Of a stretch of DNA of 64,000 bases, positions 44,711 through 50,890 are shown piece after piece. Location of the stretch: contig JAVUPY010000065.1 in NCBI GenBank assembly GCA_032252755.1, forward strand, positions 1-64,000. Direction: 5' to 3'. Position 1 is the first letter of the stretch. The number at the start of each line of letters is the position of its first letter. Under the pieces are notes generated by a model, which worked only from the letters and a program-made list of their open reading frames with translations, was not told the origin of the DNA and did no database searches. The DNA is from Terriglobia bacterium. GTDB lineage: Bacteria > Acidobacteriota > Terriglobia > Terriglobales > Acidobacteriaceae. The position numbers were made by a program, and so were the translations under genes.

Positions 44711-44905
44711 ATGGTCAGTCCTTTTTTCGTTGTTTCGTTTTTGAACTTCTCTTCTTCTGATCTTCCGATGTTGTTCGCTTCTCCCGATCTTCGGTTCTTC
44801 GGTTGCTCCAGGCCCATGGCAGCTTTTCGTTTTGCCCTTTGCCCTCTGCCCTTTGACTTCGCCCAGTTTTGCCGTTTCCCTTTACCGTTTCCTACGGTTT
44901 TACCG
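44711..44905. repeat. Pyrimidine-rich degenerate heptamer tract (TTTGCCC/TTTGCCG units)
   Basis: Most of the spacer between the EamA and arsM genes is made of short units such as TTTTGCC, CTTTGCC, CTCTGCC and GTTTCCC. Its related 23-bp core occurs at 6671 and 43837. The 3' part runs into the end of arsM. Confidence 0.5.
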
Positions 44906-45680
44906 CATGCACCTTCACGCTCGCAATCGCCCGCCACGCCATATTGGCGATCGAACTTCCGCAGCAGCTTTTACCATCGTTCGGCGCAACCGCCTCGGCG
45001 TACTTCGACCCGTAGAGAACTTCCGGAATGGCCAGTTTCTGGAAGCCGGTCTCCAGCATCATGCGAACGTAGTCCTGCATATAGCTCGCGCCCGCAATGC
45101 ACCCGGTATATGCGGCGACATCATTCTTCACGCGCTCGTCCAACTCCTTCAGCAGCACGATATCGCTCACCGCGATCCGCCCGCCCGGCTTCAGCACGCG
45201 AAACATCTCGCGAAACACCGCCGGCTTGTCCGCGCTCAGATTGATCACGCAGTTGCTGATGATGTAATCCACGCTCGCATCTTCCACAGGCAGCTTCTCA
45301 ATATACCCTTTACGAAATTCGACGTTCGCCGCTCCCAGTTTCTGCGCGTTTTCTTTGGCGCGCGCCAGCATATCATCCGTCATATCCACGCCGATCACCC
45401 GCCCCGTCGGCCCCACCTGCTTCCACGCAAGAAATGCATCGAAACCCGCGCCGCTACCGAGATCGAGGACCGTCATTCCCGGCCCAATCTCCGACATCGC
45501 AATCGGATTTCCGCACCCCAGCCCAAGGTTCGCATCGCCCGCAATCGCCAGGTCCTCTTTCGAATACCCAATCGCACCTGCGACATAATCCTTATTGCCG
45601 CATCCGCAGCCCGACTGCTCACCGCGAGCAATCGCGCCATACCGTTCCTTAACAATCGTCAACACCTTCTCTTTTTCCAC
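44892..45680 (-). CDS. arsM: Arsenite S-adenosylmethionine methyltransferase
   Basis: About 262 residues from the GTG at 45680, which has AGGAG seven bases upstream; the longer in-frame start lacks one. It methylates As(III) to volatile or less retained forms. Motif [12 protein letters not shown] (70-80) binds AdoMet, and the arsenic-binding cysteines are at Cys56 (GLGCGNP), Cys144 (SNCVINLS) and Cys194 (YTGCIAGA). An additional N-terminal GCGCG is typical. It is divergent from arsR, sharing the regulated intergenic region. Confidence 0.92.
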
Positions 45681-45743
45681 GTATTTCTCCTGTCGATCTT
45701 TTCGATTACCAGATTCCCGCTTACCCGATGCAACTACATATGC

Positions 45744-45771
45744 TTGCACGAATATAGTTCCGTGCTATTAT
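45744..45771 (+). promoter_or_regulatory. arsR promoter with embedded palindromic operator
   Basis: TTGCAC (45744-45749), a 16-base spacer and TATTAT (45766-45771) form a good sigma-70 promoter. The spacer is bracketed by an inverted repeat GCACG (45746-45750) / CGTGC (45761-45765). A bound ArsR dimer would block polymerase directly. The predicted start is about ten bases before the arsR ATG. Confidence 0.65.
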
Positions 45772-45787
45772 ATCTGTCAACCCATAT

Positions 45788-46174
45788 ATGTCAGAAAAGA
45801 AACTCACCCTCGACGCCCTCCTGAAAACCCTCGCCGACCGCACCCGTCTGCGCCTGCTAAACCTCATGGGCGATCACGAAATCTGCGTCTGCTTCTTAGT
45901 GGAGGGACTGAAAACCAGCCAGCCGAAAATCTCGCGCCACCTGGCCTACCTTCGCCGCTCCGGGCTCGTCGCCGCCCGCCGTGAAGGTCTCTGGATGCAC
46001 TATCGCATCAACCGTCCGAAGGACTCGAACCTGGCAGGCGTCCTCGACGCAGTCCTGCAATCTGCCACGCACGACCCCGAGATGAAGAAAGATTTCGCGC
46101 GTCTCAACTCCGCCTGCTGCGCTCCCAAACTCACAACGTTACAGCGTGCGCCAGCACCTGCACCCGTCGCGTAA
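45788..46174 (+). CDS. arsR: ArsR-family metalloregulatory repressor
   Basis: A 128-residue winged-helix repressor. The metal-sensing box EICVCFL (Cys33, Cys35) matches the ELCVCDL of arsenic sensors, and the recognition helix is KTSQPKISRHLAYLR. A C-terminal SACCAPK adds two cysteines that may also bind metalloid. Arsenite binding should release it from the operator at 45744-45771, inducing arsR-acr3-arsC and probably arsM. No ribosome site precedes the ATG; the transcript is nearly leaderless. Confidence 0.93.
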   Translation: MSEKKLTLDALLKTLADRTRLRLLNLMGDHEICVCFLVEGLKTSQPKISRHLAYLRRSGLVAARREGLWMHYRINRPKDSNLAGVLDAVLQSATHDPEMKKDFARLNSACCAPKLTTLQRAPAPAPVA

Positions 46175-46183
46175 AGGACACCT

Positions 46184-47269
46184 ATGACAGGCATCTCTCG
46201 ACGACTTTCATTTCTCGACCGCTTTCTTACCATATGGATCTTTTCCGCCATGGCTCTCGGCGTAGCGATCGGCTACTTCTCGCCGGCCTCACTAAGCTTC
46301 CTGAACCACTTCAATGTCGGCACCACCTCGATCCCCATCGCCGCCGGCCTCATCCTCATGATGTATCCGCCGCTCGCCAAGGTGAAATACGAGGAGATGC
46401 ACGAAGTCTTCCGCAATCGTCGCGTGCTCGGCCTCTCTCTCGTTCAGAACTGGATCATCGGACCCGTTCTCATGTTCGCCCTCGCCATCATCTTCCTGCG
46501 CGGGTATCCCGAGTACATGGCTGGACTCATCATGATCGGCCTCGCCCGCTGCATCGCCATGGTCATCGTCTGGAACGAACTCGCCCGCGGCGACACCGAA
46601 TACGCCGCCGGTCTCGTCGCCTTCAACTCCATCTTCCAGGTTCTCTTCTACGCCCTCTACGCCTGGATCTTCATCACCGTCCTGCCGCCGCTCTTTGGCC
46701 TGCGTGGCACCATCGTCCACGTCTCCATGCGCGACATCGCCGAGAGCGTCTTCATTTATCTCGGAATCCCGTTCCTCGCCGGAATGTTCACCCGCTTCAC
46801 GCTTCTGCGCCTCCGTGGTCGCGAATGGTATGAGCATCATTTCATTCCGCGCATCAGCCCCATTACCCTGATCGCGCTGCTCTTCACTATCGTCGTGATG
46901 TTCTCCCTCAAGGGCGAATACATCGTCCGCCTGCCGCTCGACGTTCTACGAATCGCCGTCCCACTCCTCATCTACTTCGTCGTCATGTTTCTCGTCTCCT
47001 TCTACATGGGCCGCAAACTCGGCGCCGATTACTCAAAAACCGCAACTCTCTCTTTTACCGCGGCCAGCAACAATTTCGAACTCGCTATTGCCGTCGCCGT
47101 CGCCGTCTTCGGAATCAACTCCGGAGCCGCCTTCGCCGCCGTCATCGGTCCACTGGTCGAAGTCCCGGCTTTGATTGCATTAGTAAACGTCGCCCTATAC
47201 TTCCAGCGCAGATACTTTGCTGCAGAAGTTCCCTCAACGAAGCATTCCACTCAACCCGTGTCATCCTGA
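46184..47269 (+). CDS. acr3: Arsenite efflux permease (ACR3 family)
   Basis: A 361-residue polytopic protein with ten predicted helices and the ACR3 signature Cys123 in [17 protein letters not shown]. It exports As(III) from the cytoplasm. It lies nine bases behind arsR and before arsC, so the three form one operon. Confidence 0.93.
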
Positions 47270-47292
47270 GCGAAGCGCATTCTTGGTTGCCT

Positions 47293-47700
47293 ATGAAACG
47301 TGTCCTGATCCTCTGCACCGGCAATTCCGCCCGCAGCCAGATGGCAGAAGGCATCCTGCGCCACCTGGCTGGGGATCGCTTCGAAGTCTTTAGCGCCGGC
47401 ACGCACCCGGTTGGATTGAATCGTCTTGCCGTGGAAGTCCTGCGCGAGATCGGCATCGATATCTCGCAGCACCGCTCGAAATCGGTCGACGAATTCGCCG
47501 GCCAGCAATTCGACTACGTCATCACCGTCTGCGACAATGCCCGCGAGTCCTGCCCCGTCTTCCCCGGCGCCGGAGAGCGCATCCACCACAGTTTCCCCGA
47601 CCCCGCCGCCTTTTCCGGATGCCGACAATCCGCCGCCTTCCGCCAGGTCCGCGACCTCATCCGCCCCTGGCTCGAACAATTCATCCGCCAGCACCCTTAA
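47293..47700 (+). CDS. arsC: Arsenate reductase, thioredoxin-coupled (low-molecular-weight phosphatase fold)
   Basis: About 135 residues from ATG 47293 (a TTG six bases earlier is possible). The P-loop Cys8-x5-Arg14 (LCTGNSARS) and the shuttle cysteines Cys80 and Cys87 (CDNARESCP) are those of the S. aureus-type enzyme. Arsenate is reduced to arsenite, which ACR3 then exports. The distance from acr3 is 23 bases. Confidence 0.93.
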   Translation: MKRVLILCTGNSARSQMAEGILRHLAGDRFEVFSAGTHPVGLNRLAVEVLREIGIDISQHRSKSVDEFAGQQFDYVITVCDNARESCPVFPGAGERIHHSFPDPAAFSGCRQSAAFRQVRDLIRPWLEQFIRQHP

Positions 47701-47730
47701 AAAACAAGCCGGCCATTTCTGACCGGCTTG
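47699..47730 (-). terminator. Intrinsic terminator of the radical SAM gene
   Basis: Read on the minus strand, CAAGCCGG (47730-47723) pairs with CCGGCTTG (47712-47705) and is followed by six T. It lies about 75 bases behind the radical SAM gene; the T-run overlaps the arsC stop codon on the other strand. On the plus strand the same stem lacks a T-run. Confidence 0.8.
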
Positions 47731-47756
47731 CGCAGTAATCATCAGGATTTCTCTAT

Positions 47757-47803: not shown

Positions 47804-49930
47804 CTAATCTCCCGCCACTTCCTCCGCGACGTCCTCTTTCTTCTTCGGCGTCCCAAGGCTCCCCAGCGGGACAAACCCGTCCTTCGACTGCGGCTTCTCG
47901 CCCAGCACATGCTCTTTGTAGAGAGCCATCATGCGAGCGTTCTCCGCTTCCTGCCGCGGATCGATCACCTTCAATGCCTGCTTCGCGTCGCGAGCACGCA
48001 GTTTCTCTTCGCGCGCCGTCTTCGCAATGCCCAGCTCGTCCAGTGTCGTGTTGCGGGCTGCCGTCACGTGCTCCTCGTTCAGCTTCAGTGAGTGCGTCGT
48101 GCTCTCCATCGCGACCTTCTTGCCGCCCGCGAAGATCTCATGCCGCCCGTGCTCCTCGTACCACTTCGTGAGGGTAGCCGTCATGTGCATCTTCTCAATG
48201 ATGTTCCGCCAGCCCACGCCCGTGTTATACGCGCAGAAGCTGATCTCGCCTTCCTGCGTCGCGTACGGGATGATGCACTGCTCCGTACGCCGGAAGTCGT
48301 AGTTGAACAAATCCTGGAACCACATGCCCGCAATGAACAGGAAGTTCCAGCGGTCCTGTCGCCGCTTCTGGATATCCTGCTCTGTGCGCGTCGGGTCTGA
48401 CTTGCCGTACTTCTGCGCCGCCGTCTTCGTCGCACCAAAGGTCTTGTCGAACTTCTTCAGCAGGTCGACAAACTTGAAGTGCTTCGGCGCCTTAAACGGG
48501 TCGTAGTTGCGCCCCAGGGCCAGGGCCATGCCGAGATTCGACAGGAACGTGCCGCGCGCCGCATCGTTCACCTTCGCAACGTCTTTCGCAATGCGGTCGC
48601 CATTCAGGAACGCCGTCACCGGCACTGCTTCCTTCGTTTCCTTGTCGATCATCACTGCCATGCCCACGCCGCAATTCGGGTGGCATCCGCAGCTCAGCGA
48701 TCCCCAGTCCGCGTTCGGACCGTGCGTCAAATCCGCCCAGTCGCTGAACGTCGACATGAACGAGATCGGGAACCAGTCGCGCGTCGGCTCGCCCAGTCCC
48801 GTCTGGCTCTTCACGTCGTGCGCCAGGTGGCTCAGCGTGTATCGCTGCGCCTGGCGCCGCTCGTCCGTAATCTCTTCGTCGCGTCCTGTAAACGAAACCG
48901 GCTGGAACGACAGGAAACTGATCTTCTTCGGGTTATCCAGTGCGAACTGGATGATGTGTCCCACCTGCTCGTTGTTAATCCCGTTCACGATCGTCGTCAC
49001 CGGAACGATATCGACGCCCGCGCTGTGCAGGTTCTCAATCGCGCGCAGCTTCACGTCGAACAGGTTGCCGACCGCGCGGTGCGAGTTCGCCGCGTTGCCG
49101 ATACCGTCGAACTGCAGGTACGCATATCGCAGGCCCGCTTCTGCCGCCTGCCTGCAAAATTCCGGACTCTTCGCGAACTCAATCCCGTTCGTTGCCGCCT
49201 GCACCGAGTTGTACCCAACCTTGCGCGAGTACGCCACCGCGTCCAGGAAGTACGGCGACAATGTCGGCTCTCCGCCCGAGAACTGCACGCTCATCTGCCG
49301 TTTCGGCTTGATGCTGATCGCGTTATCCAGCACCATCTTGATCTCTTCCCACGTCAGCTCATGCACGAACCCGACCTGGTTCGCGTCCATGAAGCACGGG
49401 TCGCACATCATGTTGCAGCGATTCGTCAGGTCCACCGTCAGCACCGAGCCGCGGCCGTACTTCACCGTCGAGGTGCCGTGGTTGTGCAGTTTCTCGTCGT
49501 TGTGCGCGCGAATGTCGCGCCCCGGGAAAACCTCTTCCAGGTGACGGAAGAAATCCACGTCGATCGCCATCACGTCTTCGAAGTGTCCGTGCTTAGGGCA
49601 ATCCTTCACCATCAGGATCTTCCCGTCGCGCTCCAGGATCGTCGCCTTAATCTCGCCGATCGGCTGGTTCAGCAATACCTCGTACGGCAGCTTGCCGTCC
49701 AAAATGTCCTTGCGAATCTCCGGCACGCACTTCGGGCAGAGCGAGTCCGTCGCGCGCGGCCACCCCAGCGGCGGCTTCGTCTTCTGGTACGACTTCAGCA
49801 GCGGCTTCTCGCTCCACTTCGGCGTAAACGATTCGTTCTGGTTGATGCTGTTCAGCTTGTCGAACACTGCCCACGCCGCTTTCGCGCCATAGGTGAATGC
49901 CTTCTCGACGTATTTAACTGGCTTATGCAT
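47804..49930 (-). CDS. Radical SAM protein of the tetraether lipid synthase (Tes) type
   Basis: A 708-residue radical SAM enzyme; ATG 49930 has GAGGAAAGG upstream. The SAM cluster motif is Cys172-x3-Cys176-x2-Cys179 (RCNMMCDPC), then SGGEPTLSP (218-226). The N-terminal region has Cys65-x2-Cys68 (LCPKC) and Cys111 in DCPKHGHF. The C-terminal half has SCGCHPNCG (Cys414, 416, 420) and FQDLFNYD followed by Cys552 and FCAYNTGVGW (Cys566). These extra cysteines and phrases recall the MJ0619/Tes family, which joins lipid tails into membrane-spanning lipids. The last 100 residues are a charged tail. The specific reaction here is inference. Confidence 0.75.
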   Translation of the reverse strand: MHKPVKYVEKAFTYGAKAAWAVFDKLNSINQNESFTPKWSEKPLLKSYQKTKPPLGWPRATDSLCPKCVPEIRKDILDGKLPYEVLLNQPIGEIKATILERDGKILMVKDCPKHGHFEDVMAIDVDFFRHLEEVFPGRDIRAHNDEKLHNHGTSTVKYGRGSVLTVDLTNRCNMMCDPCFMDANQVGFVHELTWEEIKMVLDNAISIKPKRQMSVQFSGGEPTLSPYFLDAVAYSRKVGYNSVQAATNGIEFAKSPEFCRQAAEAGLRYAYLQFDGIGNAANSHRAVGNLFDVKLRAIENLHSAGVDIVPVTTIVNGINNEQVGHIIQFALDNPKKISFLSFQPVSFTGRDEEITDERRQAQRYTLSHLAHDVKSQTGLGEPTRDWFPISFMSTFSDWADLTHGPNADWGSLSCGCHPNCGVGMAVMIDKETKEAVPVTAFLNGDRIAKDVAKVNDAARGTFLSNLGMALALGRNYDPFKAPKHFKFVDLLKKFDKTFGATKTAAQKYGKSDPTRTEQDIQKRRQDRWNFLFIAGMWFQDLFNYDFRRTEQCIIPYATQEGEISFCAYNTGVGWRNIIEKMHMTATLTKWYEEHGRHEIFAGGKKVAMESTTHSLKLNEEHVTAARNTTLDELGIAKTAREEKLRARDAKQALKVIDPRQEAENARMMALYKEHVLGEKPQSKDGFVPLGSLGTPKKKEDVAEEVAGD

Positions 49931-50347
49931 GAACCGCCTTTCCTCAAGCCTGGAATCTTGTTCCCTTACTCTTCCCGCGCCTTTGCGAGAGGGTGGGTAC
50001 TATTGCTGAACTTTCGCTTAGACCGGTATACAAACACGGATGCCGCCCGAACTAATACAGTTTGCATACTAGGGCCTCAAGCACCCATCTCCCAACCAGG
50101 AATCCCCGAATGGCGGCCTTTTGGTATTAAGTGGCGCAGATATCACACCGAATGGTGACCTGAGTCACGTACCGAAGTTATTGAAAATGAAGGAGAATGT
50201 GTCAGCGTGTAATACTAGGCAGTGGAGTCGATTCCGAGAGCGTGGACGACCTGTCGCTCCCAGCGCAACCCCGCTTTCCCGAGTTCCCCGATTTCCGGAA
50301 CTCCATCGCTGCTCAAAATCTGCTCCTCAAAGGGATCGCTCGTAATC
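49931..50347. other. Intergenic region between divergent genes
   Basis: About 417 bases separating the radical SAM gene (-) from the VanZ-like gene (+). It must hold both promoters. A short open frame at 50197-50457 has a fair ribosome site but overlaps the VanZ-like gene and is not protein-like. A weak hairpin resembling the repeat family lies near 49965-50000. Confidence 0.45.
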
Positions 50348-50890
50348 ATGCCGAAGCTGACGAAAGAAGCAGTTTTCCGCTACTGGATTCCAGCCATCTG
50401 CTGGATGATTGTGATAGCGCTCGAGTCGGCATTCCTCTCGGCTACAAGAACCGGTAGCATCGTCGATCCGATCCTGCACAGGATGCTCCCCGGCCTCAGC
50501 TACAGCCAGATTGATCACATTCACGAGATGGGCCGCAAGGTGGGACATTTCATCGGCTTTGGCCTGATGAGCTACTTCTTCTTCCGTGCCTTTCGCGGGA
50601 CCGAACACGTTTATCACGGAACAGAAACTATCCTGCGCAAGAGGGTTGTTCCCGCCGGACATCGGCTGTTCGCATATCTCTGGCAGTGGCGATGGGCCGC
50701 GCTCGCCATCGTTTGCACCGCGCTGGTCGCAATCGCCGATGAAGTTCACCAGATGGGTGACCCGACGCGCACAGGAAACTGGTGGGACGTTCTGCTCGAC
50801 AGCGTCGGCGCGCTGATATTTCAATTCCTGATTTTGACGGTTCTTCGGGCGCGCACCCCGCAAAAGATGCCGGAGAACGTGAGTTCTTGA
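50348..50890 (+). CDS. VanZ-family membrane protein
   Basis: About 180 residues from ATG 50348 (AAAGGGA upstream). Four to five membrane helices are predicted. The VanZ pattern is visible: a helix with YWIPAICWMIVIALES, DHIHEMGRKVGHFIGFGLMSYFF in the middle and ADEVHQM...RTGNWWDVLLDSVGALI at the end. The cellular role of stand-alone VanZ proteins is uncertain (cell envelope, lipid or glycopeptide tolerance). It lies divergent from the Tes-like gene. Confidence 0.8.
   Translation: MPKLTKEAVFRYWIPAICWMIVIALESAFLSATRTGSIVDPILHRMLPGLSYSQIDHIHEMGRKVGHFIGFGLMSYFFFRAFRGTEHVYHGTETILRKRVVPAGHRLFAYLWQWRWAALAIVCTALVAIADEVHQMGDPTRTGNWWDVLLDSVGALIFQFLILTVLRARTPQKMPENVSS

Follow-up and report, generated by a model that had tools for sequence, protein, structure and literature searches.

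A gene on the minus strand of the window, by which we mean the whole stretch of 64,000 nt analyzed here (contig JAVUPY010000065.1, from an acidobacterium of the family Acidobacteriaceae), is a fairly probable candidate for the acidobacterial synthase of iso-diabolic acid, a membrane-spanning lipid, as judged from homology, retained metal ligands and the distribution of the clade to which its product belongs. The acidobacterial enzyme for this acid has been described as still unknown (PMC10087280), and the acid itself is the presumed precursor of brGDGTs, the lipids of the soil palaeothermometer. Tes homologues of bacteria, including acidobacteria, were proposed as possible brGDGT makers in 2022 (PMC8941075, PMC10087280), and the general idea of the original prediction, a Tes-like maker of membrane-spanning lipids, is not new. 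The present analysis adds three points that we did not find in the literature searched: the acidobacterial proteins fall in two clades, one of these is devoid of the [Fe4S4]N cluster, and this cluster-less clade pairs with iso-diabolic acid. Within the bacterial Tes homologues, attention can thereby be restricted to a single defined clade, which supplies the sole such gene in cultured strains; if the assignment is true, tail-to-tail coupling can proceed without the N-terminal cluster of Tes.

Locus and family assignment

The gene and its terminator are located as follows.

47804..49930, minus strand: Tes-like radical SAM gene, 708 aa, of the clade without the N-terminal auxiliary cluster
47704..47731, minus strand: intrinsic terminator downstream of the gene, a 12-bp stem and then U6 (-21.8 kcal/mol, z -3.9)

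The reading frame starts with ATG, with GAGGAAAGG a few bases upstream, and ends with TAG, and its translation contains every motif quoted in the original prediction: CPKC (residues 65-68), CPKHGHF (111-117), CNMMCDPC (172-179), SCGCHPNCG (413-421), FQDLFNYD (538-545) and FCAYN (565-569). Because the protein is 75-84% identical to its orthologues and the differences from one relative (L006, 84% identity) number 91, 67 and 320 at codon positions 1, 2 and 3, we take the frame to be a protein-coding gene under selection; the overlapping plus-strand frames are by-products of its high GC3 (0.84). The terminator had been described as the gene's own, and it may serve also the convergent arsC-like (arsenate reductase) gene. 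The VanZ-like neighbour mentioned originally is indeed located at 50222-50890, and we dropped the link to it because this adjacency is not kept in relatives and is thus uninformative. The statement that the gene lies in no recognisable lipid operon was borne out more widely, since around the gene in 80 relatives no conserved neighbourhood of note, including one of lipid genes, was found. A promoter scan gave sites no more numerous than in shuffled sequences. Directly downstream of the gene, at 44892-47700, is an arsenic resistance cluster composed of an arsM-like arsenite methyltransferase gene on the minus strand and genes for an ArsR regulator, an ACR3 arsenite pump and a thioredoxin-type arsenate reductase on the plus strand.

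When the protein was searched against PDB sequences, the best match was GDGT-MAS/Tes of Methanocaldococcus jannaschii (MJ0619; 7tol/7tom, E=1.8e-62, residues 93-591), followed by generic radical SAM enzymes at approximately 1e-5, MoaA (1e-5) being the first of them. Tes (NF045702) was also the top NCBIfam model with 315 bits (313 in the genome search), which is below its curated equivalog cut-off of 450 bits; the assignment to the Tes group in the original prediction therefore holds as to the best solved relative and the best-ranking model, but not as to equivalence, the true Tes homologue of this genome being a second gene on contig C7. The runner-up was the radical SAM (seleno)protein TrsS (NF045646), which resembles the N-terminal and radical SAM (RS) region of the window protein, but its best match is confined to residues 92-378 and its 210 bits are far under the cut-off of 490. 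Pfam assigned Radical_SAM and the HMPTM zinc ribbon, with PF23545 at 1.1e-12, and HMPTM is the older name for the N-terminus of MJ0619; no cobalamin domain was found in the protein. An AlphaFold2 model built with 37 close homologues reached a pLDDT of 61, too weak for pocket analysis, and with this weak model (TM 0.42) Foldseek placed only 7tom and 7tol below 1e-3. Viral contigs, searched for a deeper alignment, gave nothing useful, and plasmids gave only distant radical SAM matches of 26-28% identity.

Metal sites and other features of the protein

We compared the metal ligands of 126 window-type proteins, i.e., members of the same clade, with those of 35 canonical acidobacterial Tes homologues. 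The MJ0619 numbering used for this comparison (C9, C12, C33, H36, C73, C77, C80, the RS cysteines, M439 and Y459) agrees with PMC9433317, in which C9/C12/C33/H36 were assigned to the rubredoxin site, C98/C102/C105 to the RS cluster and C338/C455/C470 to the [Fe4S4]C cluster. The corresponding features of the window protein are as follows.

49850..49924, minus strand: predicted amphipathic N-terminal helix, residues 3-27 (hydrophobic moment approximately 0.55, AF2 pLDDT approximately 87-91)
49589..49738, minus strand: rubredoxin-type Fe site CPKC...CPKH, residues 65-114 (C65, C68, C111, H114; PF23545)
49451..49492, minus strand: place of the Tes [Fe4S4]N ligands, residues 147-160, with no Cys
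49394..49417, minus strand: radical SAM cluster CNMMCDPC, residues 172-179
48671..48691, minus strand: CGCHPNC, residues 414-420; C420 corresponds to MJ0619 C338, an [Fe4S4]C ligand
48233..48325, minus strand: C-terminal cluster domain, residues 536-566 (Met536=Met439, C552=C455, Tyr556=Tyr459, C566=C470)

In 125-126 of the 126 window-type proteins, the ligands of all three aforementioned sites have their equivalents, as do Met439 and Tyr459. The rubredoxin-type site is present in every one, with a spacing between its two pairs longer than in the C9-X2-C12-X20-C33-X2-H36 of MJ0619, and the window protein retains the RS cysteines C172/C176/C179 together with the GGE motif (G219-G220-E221). The [Fe4S4]N cysteines (C73, C77 and C80), on the other hand, occur in 0/126 window-type proteins versus 35/35 canonical ones, all four ligands including the His being lost; among the auxiliary cluster cysteines, whose examination had been proposed with the original prediction, those of one of the two auxiliary [Fe4S4] clusters are consequently missing. 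At the place of this loss, H149, H151 and R160 are invariant in the window clade and S154 is nearly so. Judging from the alignment, the clade retains the centre at which alkyl radicals are trapped and joined, and it is without one surface cluster. With the loss of this cluster, which is present in MJ0619 and in all 35 canonical proteins, the electron supply, and even the reaction, may differ.

The window protein is approximately 31% identical to MJ0619 over 488 columns and shares with it the rubredoxin C-X2-C...C-X2-H, the CX3CX2C motif, the C-terminal cluster cysteines, the labile Met439 and Tyr459, but it is longer by approximately 60 residues at the N-terminus and 110 at the C-terminus, and it differs also in an additional invariant cysteine, C414, which is peculiar to the clade; C416 is likewise invariant. 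The additions consist of the amphipathic helix and a C-terminal extension. The helix is absent from MJ0619 and may contact the membrane.

Two clades of the Tes family

The second Tes-family gene of the window's genome (C7:46005-47483) scores 571 bits, above the NF045702 cut-off, and its product is 43% identical to MJ0619, versus 31% for the window protein. These two types belong to a common superfamily and are 34% identical to each other, but the canonical type has all four metal sites and groups with MJ0619. In a tree of 86 rows, a long branch with an SH-aLRT of 100 separates the window type from the canonical type and MJ0619. Within the window clade, proteins of Acidobacteriaceae are placed together, those of Bryobacterales adjoin them, and those of putative Chloracidobacterium are farther away; since this branching roughly tracks taxonomy, the clade looks long-inherited. 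Among the homologues listed by Zeng et al. (PMC8941075), the single one of E. aggregans at 32% is, by the level of sequence similarity, probably window-type, and those of Koribacter (42%) and Solibacter (40%) are probably canonical.

Both types are held by the window's genome and three relatives; in the three (L155, L156 and L157 in genomes G253, G117 and G075, all of one family) they lie 1-6 kb apart. Two other cases may be mentioned here. Acidicapsa dinghuensis has a second Tes-like paralogue (L096, G005:C9:128038-129459), which shares 42% identity with the window protein but carries other residues in place of the three cysteines of the C-terminal cluster and of the Tyr459 equivalent; this is possibly a repurposed enzyme. 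Contig CAJCHN010000133.1, filed under Rhodanobacteraceae, encodes a window-type protein of 77% identity and is probably a mis-binned acidobacterial contig, or else a case of transfer.

A DUF2229 gene resembling Ger/PlsA, Ger being glycerol ester reductase, was found in 26 of the 34 sampled genomes with canonical Tes versus 25 of the 177 with only Tes-like genes below the cut-off (Fisher p of approximately 1e-12, in which relatedness is ignored). In two genomes it adjoins canonical Tes on the same strand, once 75 bp downstream, and in ten relatives' genomes that have the window type and no canonical Tes, no Ger-like DUF2229 gene was found. On the basis of these observations, canonical Tes, and not the window type, tracks with ether formation, which suggests a tetraether role for the canonical enzyme. 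In the window's own genome, the Ger/PlsA-like operon (C25:19676-26491) encodes proteins of 1208 aa (two BcrAD_BadFG stretches plus DUF2229), 448 aa (radical SAM/SPASM) and 603 aa, the last of which matched no Pfam or NCBIfam model.

Iso-diabolic acid, the proposed reaction and competing readings

A Tes-like match at E<=1e-40 was found in 211 of the 396 sampled acidobacterial genomes, 34 of them above the Tes cut-off; for some of the matches below it the score is much lower (E of approximately 1e-57 to 1e-84), and these may not be of the window type. In the window's family, such a match was found in all 50 sampled genomes, its own included, and it was of the window type wherever sequences were fetched; the clade is near-universal in this family. 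The aforementioned ten relatives, named cultures included, have the window type in 10/10 and canonical Tes in 0/10, and the only extras were the degenerate Acidicapsa paralogue without C-terminal cluster cysteines and a second weak partial match in one Granulicella.

The reading of the window enzyme as an iso-diabolic acid synthase is based on the following observations. At E<=1e-25, a gene of the window clade is the sole member of the Tes family in Edaphobacter modestus DSM 18101, which had 30.4% iso-diabolic acid in a study where Edaphobacter strains contained 12-30% of it among their fatty acids (PMC11354219). Putative Chloracidobacterium genomes (two contigs, 3.7 Mb) have three Tes-like matches each, the window clade among them and none above the cut-off, and the acid is a primary fatty acid in Chloracidobacterium (PMC12816986). 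The best match to 7tol/7tom, with the RS, rubredoxin, [Fe4S4]C, Met and Tyr ligands kept, and the Tes-like gene in all 50 sampled genomes of the family also speak for it. Iso-diabolic acid has been reported in subdivisions 1, 3, 4 and 6 (PMC13274423), and the correspondence between clade and lipid is partly confounded because it follows phylogeny. Solibacter usitatus, which makes brGDGTs with iso-diabolic acid undetectable (PMC10087280), counts against this reading, as do the loss of [Fe4S4]N and the lack of a conserved neighbour among lipid genes. The membrane-spanning lipid maker of the original prediction fits the distribution of the clade, but the evidence here favours iso-diabolic acid over tetraethers as its product.

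By analogy with GDGT-MAS, from which we infer the substrate, the product, the order of steps and each chemical step, SAM would be cleaved at the RS cluster (PMC9433317), and the 5'-deoxyadenosyl radical would abstract H at the omega (terminal) carbon of one iso-C15 chain, whose tail end resembles that of phytanyl chains (PMC8941075). The labile Met536 would then leave [Fe4S4]C, and the first alkyl radical would be parked as a C-S bond on a cluster sulfide, a C-S intermediate having been reported for GDGT-MAS (PMC9433317). A second SAM would generate a second alkyl radical, and its attack on the parked carbon would form the C-C bond; two SAM and two H abstractions, one per iso-C15 terminus, would give a 13,16-dimethyl C28 diacid by omega-to-omega coupling.

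The window enzyme might instead act in the same pathway on another step or bond, i.e., in condensation to brGDGTs or diethers proper, in chain cross-linking or in methylation of the coupled chain, with another enzyme making iso-diabolic acid. The two Tes types may share a pathway, as their presence together in four genomes, a few kb apart in three, would allow; bacterial Tes homologues have been assigned to brGDGTs (PMC8941075), and E. aggregans makes brGDGTs at low O2 with its single 32% homologue. The coupling-centre ligands, however, are all kept, the protein has no detectable cobalamin domain, and most carriers are without either canonical Tes or the Ger-like gene, so that a role in tetraethers only fails to explain the near-universality of the clade; we consider this alternative unlikely. 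Descent from Tes-like ancestors to a radical SAM enzyme whose substrate is not a lipid would agree with the score below the equivalog cut-off, the missing [Fe4S4]N, the lack of a lipid operon and TrsS as the second model. It is quite improbable in view of the retained Met439/Tyr459 and unusual C-terminal cluster, the first rank of Tes in every search, and the agreement of the clade with iso-diabolic acid occurrence. Tail-to-tail fatty acyl coupling is the proposed reaction of Mss of the Thermotoga/Bacillota type, and its published models are said to have the same catalytic architecture as Tes (PMC13274423). T. maritima mss has been assayed through expression in E. coli (PMC11604127), and Mss matches have been reported in 11/97 Black Sea acidobacterial MAGs (PMC11868695). 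As the acidobacterial coupling enzyme Mss is nevertheless most improbable, because it is sparse across the phylum whereas the window clade is near-universal in an iso-diabolic acid-rich family, and because T. maritima has no Tes-model match at 1e-25, which would place Mss outside the window clade in a comparison made through the Tes model only.

Under the preferred reading, that of an iso-diabolic acid synthase, we tentatively put forward, at rather less than an even chance, a division of labour in which the core clade without the N-terminal cluster would produce ester-bound iso-diabolic acid and the rarer, Ger/PlsA-linked canonical Tes would produce ether-bound brGDGTs, with the loss of [Fe4S4]N as a variant of the coupling machinery able to work in air-grown organisms. 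E. aggregans, which makes some brGDGT and has a single homologue, is a caution against drawing this split too strictly. Concerning the surroundings of canonical Tes, in one genome (G016:C60) this gene lies approximately 30 bp behind that of a small membrane protein, which by eye resembles a CDP-alcohol phosphatidyltransferase.
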